Part shown: piece by piece, positions 50 through 21,622 of the stretch
Layout: the number at the start of each line of letters is the position of its first letter
Numbering within the stretch: the first letter of the stretch is position 1
DNA from: a virus
Reading direction: 5' to 3' (one strand)
Virus record (IMG/VR): IMGVR_UViG_3300025892_000187
Coordinates: 1 to 21,699 of that record
DNA: 21,699 nucleotides
Notes under the pieces: generated by a model
Told to the model about the DNA's origin: nothing
Seen by the model: the letters and a program-made list of their open reading frames with translations, nothing else
Databases searched by the model: none
Made by a program: the position numbers and the translations under genes

Positions 50-3000
50 ATGGCAAACGAATTTATAGCAAGAAAAGGGCTTATAGCTCTAGATGATACT
101 CAAATCACAGGTAGTTTAGGTGTATCATCAACATTATCAATCCCTGGATTTACAAATGTATCTGCTTCATTAGCAGCAGCTAGTGAGGGAAGTGGTGATG
201 GTTTTCCTTTTACAGGAAGCGCAGGTATCTCAGGAAGTTTAGAACTTATAGGTTCAGGCTCAACATTATTTAACATTGTAGGTTCCGAAGGAACATTATT
301 CTCAATTACAGATTCCCTTTCGGGCTCACTTTTTGCAGTTAGTGATGTTTCTGGTTTACCAATTTTAGAGGTATTCTCAGACGATACCGTAAAAATAGGC
401 TCCTTTAATGATGAGGCAATCACAGTAAGTGGTTCGCATACTACTATTGGTGGAGTATTAGCAATTCCCGGATTTACAGATGTATCCGCCTCATTAGCAG
501 CAGCTACTGCGGGAGACATAACAGGTGTAACAGCTGGAGATGGATTAACAGGTGGTGGTACTTCAGGAACAGTTACTTTAAACGTTGTAGGGGGCACAGG
601 AATTACTGCAAATGCTAACGATATAGCAGTTGATGCTACTATAGCAACTGTAGTTCAGTTAAACGCTTCAAGCTCTGCACTCCAAAGTAACATAGACGCT
701 AAATCTAGTATTACTCAATTAAATGCTTCAAGCTCCGCACTCCAAAGCAACATTGACGCTAAAGCCAGCATTACCCAGTTAAATGCATCTAGCTCTGCAC
801 TCCAAAGTAACATTGACGGAAAACAAGCCACCTTAACTTTCGGTAAATTAAGTGGAAACGCTTTAAAATCAGAGGAAGCATTAACTACTAATGATGTCCT
901 ATTGATGGGTAGTAGCAATGTTAAAGGAAGGACATACGCAGAATTAAAATCCGATCTATCATTAAATCTTGTTGAAAACACAGCACTATCAACTTATACA
1001 GGTAATGGAGGTGCTTTAGACAATCAATATATCACAAATGGTGCAGGTTATACCACAAATACAGGCACAGTAGATACTTCAGGCACCCCAGTAGATAATG
1101 ATTTTGCTAAATTCACAGATGCTAATACAATTGAAGGCAGAAGCTACTCAGAGGTAAAAACCGATTTATCATTAAACAACGTAGAAAACACAGCCTTATC
1201 TACTTACACAGGCAACGGTGGTGCTTTAGACAACCAGTATATTACTAACGGCGCAGGTTATACCACAAACACAGGTACTGTAACATCTGTAGGGGGTACA
1301 GGTACCGTTAGTGGCCTTTCACTCTCAGGCACAGTAACTACTTCAGGTAACCTTACTTTAGGTGGTACAATTTCAATTTCTTCAACCAACATTACAGATG
1401 TAGACGCTTTTTCTCAATCTGGCACCTATGCTTCTTTAAGAGCTCAAGGTACCACAGCAGGAGATGTTGGTTTAGGAAACGTAACTAACGAGAGTAAAGC
1501 TACAATGTTTACCTCTCCCACATTCACGGGTACTGTAGCAATCCCTGGATTTAGTGATGTATCAGCTTCATTAGCAGCCGCTAGTGGAGGAGGAGGAGGT
1601 GACATAACCGCAGTAACCGCGGGCACTGGTTTAAGTGGAGGAGGAGCTTCAGGTGATGTAACCCTAAATGTTGAAGCCGCCCAATCTGGCATAACATCAT
1701 TAGGAACATTAACTGGTCTTGAAGTCCTCCAACCAAATACTTCTGCTAGTTTATTAGTAGGTGAATACAATGTTGGATTTGACATAGCTGGGGTTGATAC
1801 CTTCCAAATTACAGGTTCAGGACTTATAATTTCCGGAGCTGGAATGGATCAAAATCACCATAACATGTTAAAGATTGGTGATGTAGAATTAATAGATTTA
1901 AATACAGTGGGTTCTGTTAATGAATTTTTAATTCATAATGTTAATTCCTTTAAAATTACAAGTGGTAGTGATGGAGGAGATATAGCAAATGACGATGGTA
2001 GATTACTTGAACATAATGGTACTGATTTTAAAATATATAGAAATAATGCGGCCGTAATAACCTCTGATACAAATGGTGACATTACTCTTAATGGTAATAA
2101 TATATCATTTGTACCTACAGGAGATACACTTTTTAAAGCATTGAATGCTACCCCTAACTCTAATAGCCACCTTATATATACTACTGCAAATCCAAGCTCA
2201 AGTCCCCAAACCGCAAAATCAACAGCACTTAATACTTTATTCCCTTACTTAGGTGGTGCTATAACAGCATCTGATGTTAGTGCAAGTGGTAATGTTTATG
2301 CTACAGACTATTTTGACAATGGCACAAACATTTCATCAATCTATCAAGCTACTTTAACCTTTGGTAAATCAAGTGGCAACGCTTTAAAATCAGAGGAAGC
2401 ATTAACTACTAATGATATTTTACTAGCGGGAAGTACTAACATTAAAGGAAGGACATATGCAGAATTAAAATCCGATCTTTCCCTTAATAATGTAGAAAAC
2501 ACAGCCTTGTCTACCTACACAGGTAATGGTGGTGCTCTAGACAACCAATACATTACAAATGGTGCAGGTTATACCACAAACACGGGTACAGTAGATACAA
2601 CAGGTACAGTAAATGCTAATGAATTTGCTAGATTTGATGATTCTAATACATTAGAGGCTTTAACTGTAGCTGAAACAAAAACAGCTTTATCACTTAATAA
2701 TGTTGAAAACACCGCAATATCAACTTTTGCGGGCAGTTCAAATATTACAACAGTAGGCACCTTAGGTTCATTAACCACCACAGGTGATATTAGTGGTAAT
2801 GGATCTACTTTAAAAGTAAGTGAAATAGATACATCTGCAGGTTCTGCAGGTTCCGCAGGAGCAAAAGGAATTAATGCTGAAACTGTTACTTTTTATAGTG
2901 ACACAGTTATAGCAGGTTATGTATATTATTTGGGGGCAAGTGCATGGGCTTCTTCGGATGCCGATGCTGTATCAACTTCTAAAGGATTTATGGGAGTTGC

Positions 3001-3232
3001 AACTTCAACAAATTCTAACACAGGTATGGTAATACGTGGTATTGTTTACATGGGAGCCGACCCAGGGGGGTCAGTTGGAGATGTAGTTTATTTATCAACA
3101 GCCACAGGAAGGCTAACCACAGATATTAGTGGATTTACAACAGGTGATGTAGTTAGAATAATGGGGTATAAAGTAGGCACAAACTTAGTATTTTTCGATC
3201 CATCAAAGGATTGGATAGAATTAGATTCATAA
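50..3232 (+). CDS. Repetitive tail fibre-like structural protein
   Basis: This 1060-residue protein is dominated by Gly, Ser, Thr, Asn and Ala and is built of internal repeats, as is usual for phage fibres and adhesins. An IPGF-[TS]-[ND]-VSASLAAA unit occurs three times (about residues 31-44, 139-152 and 498-511). A 20-residue QLNASSSALQSNIDAK-type unit is repeated three times at 203-258. An 87-residue block at 260-346 recurs at 767-853, with a partial copy at 368-411. Two 'GDIT-x-VTAG-x-GL-x-GGG' segments, a motif common in phage fibres, follow IPGF units. The last ~140 residues lose the repeats and form a Gly/Val-rich beta-type region ending in a D-P-S-K-D-W tail. The start is supported by AAAAAGGA at 37-44, one of the few clear ribosome-binding sites here, and by the N-terminus MANEFIARKGL. 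Its likely role is host recognition or virion decoration. No catalytic motif, autoprotease or fibre chaperone domain was recognised. The fibre call rests on composition and context. Confidence 0.72.
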   Translation: MANEFIARKGLIALDDTQITGSLGVSSTLSIPGFTNVSASLAAASEGSGDGFPFTGSAGISGSLELIGSGSTLFNIVGSEGTLFSITDSLSGSLFAVSDVSGLPILEVFSDDTVKIGSFNDEAITVSGSHTTIGGVLAIPGFTDVSASLAAATAGDITGVTAGDGLTGGGTSGTVTLNVVGGTGITANANDIAVDATIATVVQLNASSSALQSNIDAKSSITQLNASSSALQSNIDAKASITQLNASSSALQSNIDGKQATLTFGKLSGNALKSEEALTTNDVLLMGSSNVKGRTYAELKSDLSLNLVENTALSTYTGNGGALDNQYITNGAGYTTNTGTVDTSGTPVDNDFAKFTDANTIEGRSYSEVKTDLSLNNVENTALSTYTGNGGALDNQYITNGAGYTTNTGTVTSVGGTGTVSGLSLSGTVTTSGNLTLGGTISISSTNITDVDAFSQSGTYASLRAQGTTAGDVGLGNVTNESKATMFTSPTFTGTVAIPGFSDVSASLAAASGGGGGDITAVTAGTGLSGGGASGDVTLNVEAAQSGITSLGTLTGLEVLQPNTSASLLVGEYNVGFDIAGVDTFQITGSGLIISGAGMDQNHHNMLKIGDVELIDLNTVGSVNEFLIHNVNSFKITSGSDGGDIANDDGRLLEHNGTDFKIYRNNAAVITSDTNGDITLNGNNISFVPTGDTLFKALNATPNSNSHLIYTTANPSSSPQTAKSTALNTLFPYLGGAITASDVSASGNVYATDYFDNGTNISSIYQATLTFGKSSGNALKSEEALTTNDILLAGSTNIKGRTYAELKSDLSLNNVENTALSTYTGNGGALDNQYITNGAGYTTNTGTVDTTGTVNANEFARFDDSNTLEALTVAETKTALSLNNVENTAISTFAGSSNITTVGTLGSLTTTGDISGNGSTLKVSEIDTSAGSAGSAGAKGINAETVTFYSDTVIAGYVYYLGASAWASSDADAVSTSKGFMGVATSTNSNTGMVIRGIVYMGADPGGSVGDVVYLSTATGRLTTDISGFTTGDVVRIMGYKVGTNLVFFDPSKDWIELDS
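656..823 (+). repeat. Three tandem 60-nt units inside the fibre gene
   Basis: Units begin at 656, 716 and 776 (the last shortened to 48 nt). Each encodes QLNASSSALQSNIDAK followed by a short SIT-type linker. The copies differ mainly at synonymous positions, for example GCT versus GCC and AGT versus AGC. This suggests an old tandem duplication kept under protein-level selection. The spacing of Leu, Ala and Ile is compatible with a short helical or coiled-coil stalk segment. Confidence 0.85.
827..1087 (+). repeat. 87-codon repeat block, copy 1 (fibre gene)
   Basis: This block encodes a segment running from ATLTFGK through LKSEEALTTND, GRTYAELKSDLSLN and NGAGYTTNTGTV. It is matched almost residue for residue by the block at 2348-2608, and its second half by 1151-1282. 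The DNA copies have many silent differences but share runs such as AACGCTTTAAAATCAGAGGA. Confidence 0.85.
1151..1282 (+). repeat. Partial copy of the 87-codon repeat (fibre gene)
   Basis: This 44-codon segment runs from EVKTDLSLNNVENTAL to NGAGYTTNTGTV and matches the second half of the blocks at 827-1087 and 2348-2608. It lies directly downstream of the first copy, so the order is full block, ~60-nt spacer, half block. Confidence 0.82.
2348..2608 (+). repeat. 87-codon repeat block, copy 2 (fibre gene)
   Basis: This is the second full copy of the block at 827-1087, placed about 1.3 kb downstream and in frame. Protein differences are few and conservative (for example VLLMGSSNVK versus ILLAGSTNIK). 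A diverged half copy follows at about 2680-2730 (SLNNVENTAISTFAG). Confidence 0.85.
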
Positions 3233-15900: not shown

Positions 15901-16945
15901 CAATGAATACCCCAAAGGACAACCAGATGTAACTGATATATCTCAAGCTACTGATAATGACTTAGTTTATTTAAAGAAAATTAAAGATAATACTATTAAA
16001 TCTAAAGATGGCGATGCAATTACACCCCTGACTAATATTGGTATTACTTTCTTAAGAAGCTCCCCCGAAATTAATAATGAAAGTCATGCTGATTGGGGTG
16101 ATAATGTTATAGGTGCTTTTGATAGTTGGCAAAACGGTGGAATGGTTTTAGGTACTATAAAACCCGAAGGAGTTAGACCTATAGAATTTTCAAATGGGTA
16201 TGTAGCTATATTACCTGAGGCTTATAGTACTTATTTTGCTGAGACCCCTTCTAAAACACCTACATTTAAACCACAAAAAATAGATGGTAAATCTACTACT
16301 TTTATTAAAAAAGATGGCCAAGATATAGAATGTTATGTTGTAACCCAGGCGTATATTTCCGTAGGAACCCCATCAAATATCAATAATGTTAAGATTCGAG
16401 ATTTTAGAACAGGTGAATTTATAGATTCTAAAGCCCCAGATCAAACTCACTATATTAAAAAATCTGATTGTACTACAACCGATAAAGTGTGGTATAATAT
16501 AGCATTTACTAAGGAAGCCTCAGATCTTTTCTTAAATGGCTGGGTAAGAGATAGAAATAATATTAGAACTAATGGTGCTAATGACCAACTAAAATCAGGA
16601 ACTACTCTTCAAGAATTTAGTGCAGGAGATACTGGGTGTTGGATGAGGTTTGATACGTTAGCCGCTACTGCTGGATCTGCTGTACAAGCATTTATTGAAA
16701 ACGATGAGCCTGAAGTTATTAATAACCCCCCAGAACCCTTCTTAATAGAAAACTATGAGGGCTTTGATATTTATGAAATAGAAACCCCAGGAGGATCCCA
16801 ATATTATACTATACCAACTTTAATAGAAGATGGTGAAGTTATACTTAGTGAAGATGATACCACTTATTCTGTTGATGATGTTAAAGAAGAAATAGATCTT
16901 GTATTAGAAAGTTTTAATAATAATGAAATCCCCGATCCTGGATAA
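12902..16945 (+). CDS. Very large baseplate hub protein (gp27-like core with extra domains)
   Basis: This 1347-residue protein is more than three times the length of T4 gp27 (391). At about 168-231, the segments 'YGIVPMPGIIDANIRTKSAYG' (in pieces), 'REAKVNFECHNRRQLEVLEML' and 'MRPGYMVVLEWGW' match the opening of large-phage hub proteins. At about 899-967, 'VIPLEFSAELDGIAGVVIGNMF' (two pieces), 'RLPKAY' and 'WTTDISGKMTILP' match the second hub half, in which WTT-x-I-x-G-x-M is typical. Between them lies a ~650-residue insertion. Two SH3-like patterns follow, at about 1040-1107 (FLRSSPEINN, DNVIGAFDSW) and 1141-1225 (KVWYNIAF, NGWVRDRNNI). A short acidic domain forms the end. It should form the trimeric spike base under the tube. 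No lysozyme motif was recognised. It overlaps both neighbours by 4 nt and 1 nt. Hub identity is fairly secure; the domain details are tentative. Confidence 0.72.
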   Translation: MSIFKDTFRKYVRDQISLREEIISIGNPKDTDTLTGDVISQKNRLSSQHNIELQSGTVVKELDAGAYYNYTLNKQCILRLTSMVDYVENVNLEIGGLEGEQSFNSLKGAALSQNFILEGGVLSDFARVKDGNKITRRVTTPRDSFPRPGQKTNLGYGDLAIGADASRDGYGIVPMPGIIDANIRTKSAYGSLREAKVNFECHNRRQLEVLEMLYMRPGYMVVLEWGWTPYINNRGEVYKGKRLLEDFFADKDGKNSRIYTNNLTQEEVFSGINKLKEFHNGNYDGFLGFVKNFGFQAREDGGFSCYTELISIGEVIDSLKIPSLSTVNGTPSIFANNESTNDGDSNVIISSKKFSNNSGLRDGWDSGDNITTTTVSVDQTTFNNALEAGIFPQYNGLEGLIRSLSNYAHFNSFSSEGGSSITTLDYEDQALSEIFDFSNEDITNAASKDEKEFYEEQAEVASALAQDANYGEQSGDVKMFLRDLVKFQSVNLENYLINVLQIQNKEELRNYIIPVGGRKKKADGGLEYKNPQPFIRWDAFCTLINENLITKDEKGKHPVHIISDRLYDTDDPIEGITKLDPLLHVPIGNYTNTQNNTIIDFSCDANVCILPVQFETNPLESQGGEIDTLGIEDSLGYIPKTDIFPLNYIIGTYDKDKPVYYKGVEISPETPLKITTTDRSRRIGNIFLNINMLTNLAEKNNDNADYTLGKFLNDIWGEVNKVCPNHNFVITDDKEGNTIFVIDLPVDNSEVPLDLHEFIPFSNKNILRKFEYTSNVPSAMSSTIAIQSQDPRSIQDIDGVTFAAFNRSIKNRLLSTNITSNWEKTKNDVTSNASQYESKQNELGIEINRYFSSFFRNLKLTANDKETLGEGNITGILKEYQKNAAYLSMAYSKTSVFNSVIPLEFSAELDGIAGVVIGNMFKVRKDRLPKAYSNANIGFIVFGEEQKITAGQDWTTDISGKMTILPEEGKKPIVTGVTTATFTDEEILKQKSQVSADSNTNEYPKGQPDVTDISQATDNDLVYLKKIKDNTIKSKDGDAITPLTNIGITFLRSSPEINNESHADWGDNVIGAFDSWQNGGMVLGTIKPEGVRPIEFSNGYVAILPEAYSTYFAETPSKTPTFKPQKIDGKSTTFIKKDGQDIECYVVTQAYISVGTPSNINNVKIRDFRTGEFIDSKAPDQTHYIKKSDCTTTDKVWYNIAFTKEASDLFLNGWVRDRNNIRTNGANDQLKSGTTLQEFSAGDTGCWMRFDTLAATAGSAVQAFIENDEPEVINNPPEPFLIENYEGFDIYEIETPGGSQYYTIPTLIEDGEVILSEDDTTYSVDDVKEEIDLVLESFNNNEIPDPG

Positions 16946-17883
16946 TGGCTTATTTACCAAAAAATAAATACAAAGTATTATACACAGATGGAACTGAATT
17001 TAAACTTCTATCTGATGGAAAGTCTTATACTGGAAATTACATTAAATTAAATGATGGAAGGGTATTTGCAGGTGACAGTCCTCAAAACTTAAAAGGCAAA
17101 CTAGGCCCCCTTAAAATCAATCGCAACCAAAATGTTGTAGATAGATATACTAATAATAGAGTATATTCTGCATTACAACGCCAATTATCTAAAAAACAAG
17201 ACGAATATATTCAAATTCCATCTTCAACCCCTATTCCTACTTTATTAGATTATGGTAATGGGTATTTTAATAGATATATTTCAGTGAGATTAAATACGAA
17301 AGAATTTACAGAAATATCAAAGGATACTTATGAAAATTTTAATAAAAGAAAATATAATAAATCTTTAAATAGGATATTTTTTATAAAATGGTCTTTAGGA
17401 GAAAATAATGAAGAAGAAAATACTAAAAGATTACGCCAATTAGAATTCGATATACCTGGAATATTTAATTATTTCCCTAATAAAAATGAATTTGGTTTAA
17501 AAAATGGAGTAATACTATTAAATAATTCAAATAGAATTTATCCTAACGCTCAAATAGTTCCTAAAACATTACCTGCTGCTTATCAATTAGGTAATAAGCA
17601 CCCTAATACTATAGACAATGAAAATGTTCCTAAACACCAACATTGTAAAAGATGTAAATTTTATAACGAAACAACTGGTAATTGTGGAAAATGGAATGCT
17701 ATAGTAGAAACCCAATATTGGTGCAGAGCTTATAAAGGAAAAAATGCAAGTGATATGGTTACGGATAATACACCTCCTGAACCTCCTATTACCCCTTCTC
17801 CACAACCTACATCTTCTCCTACCCCACCAACAACTGTACCTACTTCCCAACCTGTTTCTACTCCTAGTGGTGGATCTTACTAA
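16945..17883 (+). CDS. Tail-module protein with a HiPIP-like four-cysteine motif
   Basis: This 312-residue protein starts with a beta-type N-terminus (SYTGNYIKLNDGRVFAGDSP) of a kind common in phage structural proteins. It has a helical/beta middle, then a Cys cluster at C234, C237, C247 and C260: 'HCKRCKFYNETTGNCGKW' ... 'YWCRAYKG'. The spacing C-x2-C-x9-C-x12-C with FY after the second Cys and aromatics before and after the last Cys resembles high-potential iron-sulfur proteins (HiPIP), which hold a [4Fe-4S] cluster. These are the only cysteines in the protein. The C-terminal 35 residues are a Pro/Ser/Thr-rich, probably disordered tail. The start overlaps the hub stop codon (TAATG), so it is co-translated with the hub and is likely a baseplate component. 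Metal binding (iron-sulfur or zinc) is inferred. Confidence 0.62.
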   Translation: MAYLPKNKYKVLYTDGTEFKLLSDGKSYTGNYIKLNDGRVFAGDSPQNLKGKLGPLKINRNQNVVDRYTNNRVYSALQRQLSKKQDEYIQIPSSTPIPTLLDYGNGYFNRYISVRLNTKEFTEISKDTYENFNKRKYNKSLNRIFFIKWSLGENNEEENTKRLRQLEFDIPGIFNYFPNKNEFGLKNGVILLNNSNRIYPNAQIVPKTLPAAYQLGNKHPNTIDNENVPKHQHCKRCKFYNETTGNCGKWNAIVETQYWCRAYKGKNASDMVTDNTPPEPPITPSPQPTSSPTPPTTVPTSQPVSTPSGGSY

Positions 17884-17904
17884 TTTTGTTCGTATATTTA
17901 AGGT

Positions 17905-19230
17905 ATGTACTACCTTATAGAAACACAAGAGCAATTAGATAGGTTTTTTAAAGATGAGGGTAGCGAATGTTACCTTCAATTTATTACCAATAACGACGAA
18001 ACCCATCCTAAATTACAATCACTGTGTGCTTTGTACATTTATTCATTTAGTAAGGAAAAGGGATTCATTATTAATATAGATCATCCCGAGGCGTTTAAGC
18101 TCAGTTTACCATTAAAATATTTGAAATCTTATACGAATATATTCGTCAAAGAAAAAACCAAAGCTTTACTACACATTCCCACACTCCCTTATACGGATAT
18201 ACAATCCATATATTATTTAATAAAAAACGAACCGTTAGATTCATTACCTAAAACTGGCGCTCACACATATTTTGAGCGTAAATACGGCGCATATAATGCG
18301 AATAAAATCATTCCAATTGCAAAGCACCACGAGGCGTTGACACAAGAGTTTGATGCGTTATACCCGTATATAAACAACTTTAAGGAAGAAGAATCAAACA
18401 AGTGGTACAATGAAATTCTTACACCTACGTTAGCTAAAATGGTAAGTGAGGGATTTAAAATTAACCCCACATTTAAAAAACACTTTGACATCAATGAAAA
18501 GTTTAGCATTAACGAAGATAAGGCTTATGGATGGTACAATTTTTGCACTACAACAGGACGCCCTACAAACAACTTTAATAGCATTAATTTCTCAGCTCTA
18601 AAACACGATAGTGGAGAGCGAGATAGTTTTGAAGCCGACAACGATACATTAATTGAAATGGATTACGAGGGGTATCACCCCCGTATTATAGCACGTTTTG
18701 TAGGACACCATATTGATAAAAGTGAGTCTGTACATAAACAACTAGCTCAAATGTATTTTGAAACAGCTGAGATTAGTGATGAAATGTATAAAAAGAGTAA
18801 AGAATTAACGTTCCAACAAATGTATGGAGGCATAAATAAAAAATACCTTAAACACGAGTACTTTAATAAAACACAAAAGTTTATAGACTCATTGTGGCAC
18901 GAATTTAATACTAATGGATACGTTAAAACTGTAATTGCGAGGCGTAAGCTTTTAAAGGGTAATTATAAGAATATAACGCCACAAAAATTATTTAACTATT
19001 ATATCCAGGCATTCGAAACTGAATACAATATTACTTTGTTATCGCGAGTATTTAAGCTTTTAGAAGGTAAACAAACAAAAATGGTGTTATATGTGTATGA
19101 CTCCATGCTATTCGATTTTTCGTTGGAGGATGGTAAGGAACTCCTTCAATCCCTTAGAGACATAATTTCATCAGATTTTCCCGTAAAGTTAAAGAAAGGA
19201 TATACGTACGCTTCCCTTGAGGCCTTTTGA
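17905..19230 (+). CDS. Divergent family A DNA polymerase-like protein
   Basis: In this 441-residue protein the polymerase motifs of family A are recognisable. They are: TTTGRP at 215-220; motif A 'EMDYEGYHPR' with D253; motif B 'KELTFQQMYGG' with K299, F303 and Y307 in the Pol I spacing; 'TVIARRKLL' at 342-350; 'LFNYYIQAFETE' with N364 and Q368; and motif C 'LYVYDSMLFDF' with D399. Both metal-binding Asp residues are present. Unusual changes are His258 at the steric-gate Glu position (Pol I E710), and Tyr398 and Ser400 flanking the motif C Asp, where His and Glu are usual. The N-terminal ~150 residues follow the outline of the 3'-5' exonuclease domain, but its D-x-E, N-x3-D and Y-x3-D motifs are not visible. 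'LTPTLAKMVSEGFKIN' marks the domain junction, and only ~28 residues then separate it from TTTGRP, so most of the thumb is missing. It may be the replicative enzyme, a subunit of a split polymerase, or a repair polymerase. An AAGG lies four bases before the ATG. Confidence 0.8.
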   Translation: MYYLIETQEQLDRFFKDEGSECYLQFITNNDETHPKLQSLCALYIYSFSKEKGFIINIDHPEAFKLSLPLKYLKSYTNIFVKEKTKALLHIPTLPYTDIQSIYYLIKNEPLDSLPKTGAHTYFERKYGAYNANKIIPIAKHHEALTQEFDALYPYINNFKEEESNKWYNEILTPTLAKMVSEGFKINPTFKKHFDINEKFSINEDKAYGWYNFCTTTGRPTNNFNSINFSALKHDSGERDSFEADNDTLIEMDYEGYHPRIIARFVGHHIDKSESVHKQLAQMYFETAEISDEMYKKSKELTFQQMYGGINKKYLKHEYFNKTQKFIDSLWHEFNTNGYVKTVIARRKLLKGNYKNITPQKLFNYYIQAFETEYNITLLSRVFKLLEGKQTKMVLYVYDSMLFDFSLEDGKELLQSLRDIISSDFPVKLKKGYTYASLEAF

Positions 19231-19263: not shown

Positions 19264-19653
19264 ATGAATAATAAACTTTACTGTACTTTTCTTCAAGGGG
19301 AAACAGTAGAGGAAGTTGTAGGCACAATATTAGAGGAACACGATATTTTATTTAACAAAATTTTTGTTTTAATTTCACCAGAGGAGGATAAAACCATGTT
19401 AACTTACAATATAGATGGACCTGTATATAACCTACAGATTCCTAATACTATCTTAGTACACAGAAAAAAACAAACTAACACTTTGTATACGATTAATGCT
19501 TTAAATGAAGTAATTCGTTATATGAATAATGATGAATTAGATACCTCATACCAAGTTGATTGGACAAAATTTAGAAATTGTCTTCTCCTAACGCGTCCTG
19601 GGGGATTTAAAAAGGTTAAAACCCGCCTTAAGAAAATTATTGAAGTAGATTAA
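19264..19653 (+). CDS. Hypothetical protein in the replication module (129 residues)
   Basis: The ATG at 19264 is preferred to the in-frame TTG at 19237, which overlaps the promoter-like motif. The product is a small soluble alpha/beta-type protein with 'GETVEEVVGTILEEHDILFNK' (in pieces), 'IFVLISPEEDKTMLTYNI', 'TLYTINALNEVIRYM' and a basic C-terminus (RPGGFKKVKTRLKKIIEVD). The strongly basic end could contact nucleic acid or the gp32 acidic tail. I recognise no family. Its position between a DNA polymerase and the single-strand DNA-binding protein suggests a replication accessory or regulator, but no motif proves this. The leader shows no Shine-Dalgarno sequence. Confidence 0.65.
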   Translation: MNNKLYCTFLQGETVEEVVGTILEEHDILFNKIFVLISPEEDKTMLTYNIDGPVYNLQIPNTILVHRKKQTNTLYTINALNEVIRYMNNDELDTSYQVDWTKFRNCLLLTRPGGFKKVKTRLKKIIEVD

Positions 19654-19719: not shown

Positions 19720-20472
19720 ATGAATCTAGACGAAATCAGAAAGCGAATGGACCGCTTGCAAAATAAGTCCAATGGAAAATCAGGTGGTGAATTCAGAAAG
19801 AACTTTTGGAAACCACCAAGTGGAGAAAAATCAGTAGTACGTATTGTACCATATAAGCACAATAAAGATGTGCCCTTCACTGAATTATATTTTTACTTCG
19901 GTATTGGTAAACCCCGAATGATGTCACTCTCAAATTTTGATGAGTCAGACCCAATTTTGGAATTTGCTTCTCAACTCCGTAAGTCAAATGAACCAGATAA
20001 TGTAGAGTTAGCTAAGAAACTCTATCCTAAAATGCGTATTTTCGCCCCTGTACTTGTACGTGGTGAGGAAGATAAGGGCGTTCGATTCTGGGAATTTGGT
20101 AAAATGGTATACACTGAACTTTTAGGTGTTATGATGGATGAAGATTATGGTGATATTACCGACATTGCAGCAGGTAGAGACATTACAGTTGAAGTAATTC
20201 CGGCAGCTGAGACAGGTAAAATGTTTGACACAACAACAGTTCGTGTTAAGCCAGTACAATCACCACTTTCAACAGATGGTAGCGCAGCTGAAGGATACCT
20301 TGATGATCAAAAAGATATTAAGGAACTCTTTACTAAGTTTTCATTTGATGAAATGAAAGATTCACTCCAAAAATATTTGGCACCAAGTGAAGAAAATGAA
20401 ACCGTTGAAGTAACCCCACCTGCAAAGGATAAGGTTGACATTAATTCTAAAATAGACGATTTATTCGGTTAA
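19720..20472 (+). CDS. 32: Single-stranded DNA-binding protein, gp32-like
   Basis: This 250-residue protein (T4 gp32 has 301) shows the gp32 plan. A basic N-terminal helix (LDEIRKRMDRLQNK) for cooperative self-association is followed by 'FWKPPSGEKSVVRIVPYKHN' and an OB-fold core with 'FYFGIGKPRMM'. 'FWEFGKMVYTELLGVMMDEDYG' (in pieces) and 'GRDITVEVIP' come next, then an acidic linker and a final 'INSKIDDLFG', a short acidic tip of the kind used to recruit replication proteins. Unlike T4 gp32, which holds zinc through His and three Cys, this protein has no cysteine at all, so the zinc site is absent. It should coat single-stranded DNA in replication and recombination and cooperate with the recombinase encoded one base downstream. 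It has one of the clearest Shine-Dalgarno sequences in the window (AAAAGG). Confidence 0.85.
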   Translation: MNLDEIRKRMDRLQNKSNGKSGGEFRKNFWKPPSGEKSVVRIVPYKHNKDVPFTELYFYFGIGKPRMMSLSNFDESDPILEFASQLRKSNEPDNVELAKKLYPKMRIFAPVLVRGEEDKGVRFWEFGKMVYTELLGVMMDEDYGDITDIAAGRDITVEVIPAAETGKMFDTTTVRVKPVQSPLSTDGSAAEGYLDDQKDIKELFTKFSFDEMKDSLQKYLAPSEENETVEVTPPAKDKVDINSKIDDLFG

Positions 20473-20473
20473 T

Positions 20474-21622
20474 ATGGCAAAGAAAAAATCCAACAATAAA
20501 ACCCCAGAAGGGGGAAGTCTCACTGAAGAATTAGCAGTATCGCTAAATAAAAAATTCAGTAAAGAATACAACCAAGTTGCCTACTTTCTCAATGGAGGGG
20601 ATGAATCGCCAACAGATGTAAAGTCGTGGGTATCTACAGGATGCACACCACTAGACCTAGCGATTGCTAATAGACCAAACGGGGGTTTGCCTGTTAGTAA
20701 AATTGTTGAGATTACGGGCCTAGAGCAAAGCGGTAAATCCCTCCTTGCAGCCCACGTTATAGCTTCTACTCAAAAACAAGATGGAGTAGCAATTTATATT
20801 GACACTGAATCTGCACTTGACGCTCAGTTTTTAACCGCCATTGGCGTTGATGTTGATAAAATGCTTTATATACCCCTTAATACAATTGAGGACGTATTTG
20901 AAGCAATGGAAGACATTATCGTAAAAATTCGCGAAAAACAAAAAGACAGATTAGTCACAATTGTTGTTGACAGTGTTGCTGCTGCTACTACTAAAATTGA
21001 GTCAGCTGCTGACTATGATAAAGATGGATACGCTACTGCGAAAGCCATTATTATGTCAAAGTCAATGCGTAAGATTACTAATTTAATTGGTAAACAAAAC
21101 ATCCTGTGTGTATTTACAAATCAGTTACGACAGAAACTAAACGCTATGCCGTTTGGTGATCAATACACAACATCAGGAGGTAAAGCGCTTCAATTCCATG
21201 CATCTGTTCGCTTGCGACTCAAAGGAGTAGGCAAGATTAAAGAAAAGCTTAATGGAGTTGACACAGTAGTTGGTCAAGAAGTTGAATGTGAAGTTGTAAA
21301 AAACCGCCTAGGCCCCCCTAACCGAAAAGTCCGTTATAGCGTATTTTACGATTCTGGAATTGATGATGTTTTTGGTACTTTAAAGTTACTTAAAGAATAT
21401 GGAGTTGTAAAACAAGGTGGAGCATGGTATAAGTATACTACTGCTGATGGTGAAACACACCAATTTTTAGCTAAAGAGTTTGGTGATTTATTAGAAAGTC
21501 ATCCAACAGCTAAAGAAGAATTATATAAAGCCCTTTGTGACAATTATATTATGAAGTATCGTCACGAGAAAGAAGAAGGTCTAGATCGTGATCCTGACGA
21601 AACAATAGTAGAGAATGAGTAA
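20474..21622 (+). CDS. uvsX: RecA/UvsX-type strand exchange recombinase
   Basis: This 382-residue protein (T4 UvsX has 391) contains Walker A 'GLEQSGKS' (G82-K88-S89), a catalytic Glu in 'YIDTES' (E112), Walker B 'VTIVVDS' (D166), and a DNA-binding loop region 'FTNQLRQKLNAMPFG' followed by 'TTSGGKALQFHASVRLRLK'. The loop 2 region and the following 'VVKNRLGPPNRKVRY' and 'GGAWYKY' look closer to cellular RecA than to T4 UvsX, while the size and the gp32 neighbour fit the phage role. It should form filaments on gp32-coated single-stranded DNA and drive strand exchange and recombination-dependent replication. The gene begins one base after the gp32 stop, without its own ribosome-binding site, so it is probably translationally coupled. 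The C-terminus is acidic (DRDPDETIVENE). The symbol marks function. By sequence, recA would fit as well. Confidence 0.9.
   Translation: MAKKKSNNKTPEGGSLTEELAVSLNKKFSKEYNQVAYFLNGGDESPTDVKSWVSTGCTPLDLAIANRPNGGLPVSKIVEITGLEQSGKSLLAAHVIASTQKQDGVAIYIDTESALDAQFLTAIGVDVDKMLYIPLNTIEDVFEAMEDIIVKIREKQKDRLVTIVVDSVAAATTKIESAADYDKDGYATAKAIIMSKSMRKITNLIGKQNILCVFTNQLRQKLNAMPFGDQYTTSGGKALQFHASVRLRLKGVGKIKEKLNGVDTVVGQEVECEVVKNRLGPPNRKVRYSVFYDSGIDDVFGTLKLLKEYGVVKQGGAWYKYTTADGETHQFLAKEFGDLLESHPTAKEELYKALCDNYIMKYRHEKEEGLDRDPDETIVENE

Follow-up and report, generated by a model that had tools for sequence, protein, structure and literature searches.

What does a family A DNA polymerase do once it has lost its thumb, its exonuclease activity and the residue that normally keeps ribonucleotides out? 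This question is raised by a 441-aa ORF at positions 17905–19230 (+ strand) of a virus record of 21.7 kb that is probably a fragment; "the window" here means this whole stretch of 21,699 nucleotides. The gene is flanked by T4-like tail and baseplate genes (PHROG tail sheath, baseplate hub) and by an SSB-UvsX cluster, and its coordinates and motifs match those described in an earlier note on this DNA. The product matches Pfam DNA_pol_A (E 2.5e-13). An AlphaFold2 model built from 45 aligned loci was confident (mean pLDDT 95, pTM 0.91), and its top Foldseek and VIA matches were all family A enzymes, namely DNA polymerase I large fragments, with no RNA polymerase among the best. The predicted structure thus has the palm/fingers fold that the earlier note's assignment implied. 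The VIA alignment with Bacillus Pol I (3hpo_A; Z 27.8, 412 residues, rmsd 3.5) spans residues 1–439 of the model and residues 300–876 of the chain, which indicates that both halves of a Klenow fragment, the exonuclease-like and the palm/fingers part, are present. On the Pfam match, the model and the VIA alignment, we annotated the protein as a divPolA1-type minimal family A polymerase.

The lineage has already been published, and by its sequence the window protein is a member. DivPolA1 was named by Yutin et al. (2024, Virol J 21:200; PMC11348598) from 14 phages including Flavobacterium phage immuto, its type here. In the accessible text of that paper, divPolA1 keeps the palm, has a truncated thumb and an inactivated exonuclease, is followed downstream by replication genes, and occurs in phages that carry a regular PolA, PolB or PolC elsewhere; the authors view it as replication-linked, with the polymerase kept and the exonuclease lost. 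Immuto gp001, a named member, is homologous to the window protein over its full length (tblastn: E 2e-61, 31.8% identity at 98% coverage); the two share the truncated thumb, inactive exonuclease, kept palm and downstream replication genes, and we found no structural difference between them. The earlier suggestion of a separate polymerase lineage that is thumbless, exonuclease-dead and altered at the steric gate is therefore correct, but the lineage is not a new one. New here are the uniform changes in the nucleotide pocket, a deletion in the fingers, a tightly linked small protein (p129) and the extent of the family, at least 588 stretches in IMG/VR. The accessible text of the published analysis does not mention the steric gate, the histidine, ribonucleotides, the changes at R754 and H881, the fingers deletion or p129; its figures or supplements may show the pocket changes and p129 (PMC11348598).

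Close relatives of the window protein were found at 51 IMG/VR loci, and the alignment query recovered the at least 588 confirmed stretches mentioned above. Matching records of annotated phages were only six: four Flavobacterium immuto records, one uncultured 484-kb phage and Microcystis phage Mel-JY01. The group belongs to T4-like phages of marine and freshwater environments. Bacterial and archaeal genomes gave 3 matches in 84,980, all on contigs of uncultured MAGs and probably phage contigs, which argues against a bacterial origin. Among the 50 BFVD matches listed there was no minimal PolA; all were longer PolAs of at least 517 residues. One homolog (L044:6178–7497) has a single in-frame stop, due to either sequencing error or decay.

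To locate what has been lost, residues were mapped by profile alignment to E. coli Klenow and counted in 133 distinct full-length homologs reaching down to 25% identity. In the window protein 34 residues separate G183, in the domain-junction helix, from T217 in TTTGR; the spacing is 34–36 residues in 129 of the 133 homologs, whereas E. coli Pol I has 122 and T7 gp5 about 197. The missing thumb reported earlier for this protein is therefore evidently a deletion shared by the whole divPolA1 family. Residues 163–187 (18391–18465, +), which comprise the junction helix and GFKIN and correspond to IERNGVKID of Pol I, lie just before the deletion, and by landmark spacing a short linker at residues 188–214 (18466–18546, +) takes the place of the thumb. 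The stretch after motif B, G308–F320, is only 12 residues long in 133/133 homologs and about 28 at the aligned position of E. coli Pol I, which means that the fingers too have evidently been shortened in this family, in their O1/O2 part. The earlier note omitted this second loss, together with the replacement of R754 by Tyr295 and of H881 by Tyr398.

Structure alignment and conservation assign residues 1–137 (17905–18315, +) to a vestigial 3'-5' exonuclease-like domain without catalytic carboxylates. In Bacillus Pol I the structure alignment begins at the corresponding exonuclease-like domain, which is likewise vestigial. The exonuclease motifs had not been visible in the single sequence, and no D-x-E or N-x3-D column is conserved in the homolog alignment. 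Conserved positions in the N-terminal half of the 133 homologs are E6, H34, H60, E62 and D98, of which E6, E62 and D98 are the only acidic ones. Since alignment by sequence is weak in this half, it is the structure match and the published analysis (PMC11348598) that support reading it as a decayed exonuclease.

The palm presents a different picture. The family A landmarks recognized earlier map onto their Klenow counterparts. TTTGRP (residues 215–220; 18547–18564, +) corresponds to TATGRLSS of Pol I, with T217, R219 and P220 invariant in 133/133 homologs. Motif A, DYEGYHPR (residues 253–260; 18661–18684, +), aligns D253 with D705 and H258 with E710; motif B, YKKSKELTFQQMYG (residues 295–308; 18787–18828, +), aligns Y295, K299, F303 and Y307 with R754, K758, F762 and Y766. 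N364–Q368 (18994–19008, +) are equivalent to N845–Q849 (N in 131/133, Q in 133/133), and motif C, LYVYDS (residues 395–400; 19087–19104, +), places Y398, D399 and S400 at H881, D882 and E883. K299, F303, Y307, Q368 and D399 are invariant in the 133 homologs, as is D253 in 132 (one gap).

Around these residues the nucleotide pocket has changed, and by the homolog counts the changes are uniform across the family. Histidine replaces the steric-gate Glu in 132/132 homologs with a residue at this position, as the earlier note had pointed out for the window protein. In 129/133 Tyr295 stands in for R754, a contact of the incoming triphosphate in Pol I; H881 is Tyr398 in 133/133, and E883 is Ala in 71 and Ser in 62. 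At its last position the change from VHDE to VYDS is less telling than the earlier note took it to be, as Tt72 PolA, an active phage enzyme, has a natural Ser there (PMC9324360). The same paper assigns strict conservation in family A to D705 and E710 and has E710 exclude ribonucleotides sterically (PMC9324360). The motif A Glu is present in the regular PolAs of immuto and of two related IMG/VR contigs (DYTSLEPH, DYESLEPH). Compared with bacterial DNA polymerase I large fragments (Bacillus, E. coli, Taq), the window protein has the same fold and palm motifs and keeps the equivalents of F762, Y766, K758, Q849, D705 and D882, whereas it lacks the thumb and O1/O2, carries His, Tyr, Tyr and Ser/Ala for E710, R754, H881 and E883, and shares about 15% identity. 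The canonical Klenow features missing from it are thus the thumb subdomain, the motif A Glu and the motif B Arg. A recent copy of the phage's own PolA is unlikely at ~15% identity by profile.

Between homolog pairs dN/dS was ~0.1 in the N-terminal and C-terminal halves alike, an approximate value because synonymous sites are close to saturation in most pairs. Amino-acid changes are, by this estimate, strongly counter-selected across both halves of the protein; together with the invariant catalytic residues this rules out a pseudogene. Since 133 distinct homologs of full length share the motif pattern and amino-acid changes in the protein are counter-selected, the pattern is evidently a product of neither chance nor decay. 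In this large natural family, itself under purifying selection, a Glu described as strictly conserved and ribonucleotide-excluding has everywhere given way to His, and divPolA1 offers a clean natural test of family A sugar choice and of the minimal hand needed for catalysis.

We examined whether the relatives encode another replicative polymerase, including the family B enzyme that the earlier note expected of T4-like phages. In four long contigs of the window's clade (G001–G004: L023, L034, L030, L031) a family B polymerase is split into two frames of 574 aa and about 310–318 aa. Mel-JY01 has PolB in an 855-aa frame and the uncultured 484-kb phage has PolB pieces. A full-size PolA was found in immuto and five further IMG/VR contigs, and the immuto enzyme contains both 3'-5' exonuclease and polymerase domains; the window clade with its split PolB differs in this from the immuto-like phages. 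The separate PolB or full PolA in relatives argues against divPolA1 as the replicative polymerase, and we concluded that it is in all likelihood a second polymerase beside the regular replicative one. Why phages with PolA, PolB or PolC replicases should all retain the same second polymerase is the question that follows. Each of the five records of ≥157 kb encodes a Toprim-type primase (in immuto and Mel-JY01 its annotation is DnaG-like), so divPolA1 would not be the only primase, and a replacement primase as its sole role was rejected. No Toprim primase was found in the shorter contigs, which are fragments. DivPolA2 of barbaviruses and Vibrio phage 1.063.O is likewise a short second family A-like polymerase with no standard thumb beside a PolB, but it keeps Glu in motif A (YDFKAFET) where the window family has His. 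Kinship between the two was rejected, as there is no profile similarity (hhalign probability 0.4% to AUR84708).

The genomic neighborhood is conserved. Downstream in the window are p129 (19264–19653, +), a gp32-like single-stranded DNA binding protein (19720–20472, +; Pfam gp32 E 7.3e-10, PHROG 1192) and a UvsX/RecA recombinase (20474–21622, +; Pfam RecA 6.7e-54, PHROG 97 UvsX-like). The order divPolA1, p129, SSB, recombinase, 5' nuclease, DnaB is near-universal and is kept across 161 distinct loci as far as the contigs extend, with a few insertions; SSB and UvsX lie within the window, and the 5' nuclease and DnaB were found in relatives. At many loci the recombinase is too divergent for the window UvsX query, which leaves a gap of ~1.06 kb; in immuto this position holds a RecA-like gene. 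Six loci (L054, L113, L140, L160, L175, L226) have roughly 0.4–1.5 kb of extra sequence between divPolA1 and p129.

The 129-aa protein p129, with a conserved HRKKxxNTLYTINALN, is the closest companion of divPolA1. The two occur together in 209 of 218 loci holding either one (the exceptions end at or near the gene), they are adjoining in 147 of 153 distinct loci, and the same six phage records encode both. In the same distant members p129 is better conserved than divPolA1 (37–50% vs. 25–33%), and H66, R67, K68, K69, N72, Y75, T76, N78, L80 and N81 are invariant in 31 representatives. Its predicted structure is confident (pLDDT 93); structural matching of it gave no significant or convincing fold. 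The first half is weakly RRM/ACT-like with Z up to 7.1, which is in the noise range, and a sliding clamp or other known fold was rejected. The linkage suggests p129 as a candidate partner subunit that may bind divPolA1. The partner-subunit idea of the earlier note thus gains a candidate, but there is no sign of a replicative polymerase dependent on processivity and proofreading subunits, given the separate PolB or PolA in relatives.

We consider divPolA1 to be an accessory polymerase, a minimal second family A enzyme working alongside the regular replicative polymerase, with a probability of roughly 0.55. The family A fold, the invariant catalytic residues, purifying selection, the separate replicase and the conserved gene order are the basis for this reading, and the published view of divPolA1 agrees with it (PMC11348598). 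The enzyme would carry out short, low-processivity, non-proofread synthesis on intermediates coated by SSB and recombinase, such as gap, Okazaki or D-loop filling and possibly lesion bypass. What Pol I has as its 5' nuclease domain would here be supplied by a separate gene, the downstream PolA-type 5' nuclease, and the thumb's task of holding the primer-template may fall to p129, SSB or both. Ordinary extension of primers cannot be taken for granted, because nearly all members have Tyr for R754 and the duplex-holding thumb and O1/O2 are absent. A bolder version, in which divPolA1 and p129 form a two-subunit polymerase, with p129 replacing the thumb and the His/Tyr/Tyr pocket accepting a non-dNTP substrate (rNTPs, a modified nucleotide or a non-DNA acceptor), is doubtful; if p129 did replace the thumb, this would be a rare polymerase subdomain encoded by a separate gene. 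An altered nucleotide choice, which the earlier note offered as an alternative, is possible.

It is unlikely that the enzyme uses rNTPs, admitted by His258, to make primers or other RNA in an auxiliary role. Such a role would account for the loss, in 132/132 members, of the Glu that blocks ribonucleotides in Pol I (PMC9324360) and that was retained in those regular PolAs of this phage group that we checked, and loss of the thumb would fit short products. However, the Toprim-type primase of the ≥157-kb records and the lack of RNA polymerases among the best structural matches count against it, and His, bulkier than the gate-opening Ala or Gly, may still exclude rNTPs. We find it distinctly improbable that the protein has abandoned templated synthesis to become a nucleotidyltransferase with another acceptor (e.g., a protein, p129, or a DNA end, template-independently): the losses of thumb and O1/O2 and the changes at R754, H881 and E883 do touch template-primer or triphosphate contacts, and a small obligate partner such as p129 would suit such an enzyme, but TTxxRP, N364/Q368 and Y307/F303, which make primer, template and nascent-pair contacts in Pol I, are kept almost invariably. 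A role without catalysis, as a structural or regulatory subunit of the replication-recombination complex, for which the extensive loss of DNA-binding parts and the constant linkage to the replication cluster could speak, is highly improbable, as both catalytic Asp residues and Lys299 are invariant down to 25% identity and a scaffold would not need them.

Other features of the locus lie upstream of divPolA1. A TTTNGTATATTTGAGGT-like box, similar to a promoter or to TAnnTTTG, the -7 element of Bacteroidota, is found 7–17 bases upstream of the divPolA1 start in many relatives and within 17884–17904 of the window. The exact TTTNGTATATT occurs at this spacing in about 20 loci; the window copy has one mismatch. 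The protein encoded at 16945–17883 has four cysteines and a Pro/Thr-rich C-terminal tail, and shows a weak HiPIP match below the cut-off (Pfam E 0.006). Positions 50–3232 encode a tail-fibre-like protein with repeated ITQLNASSSALQSNIDAK units.
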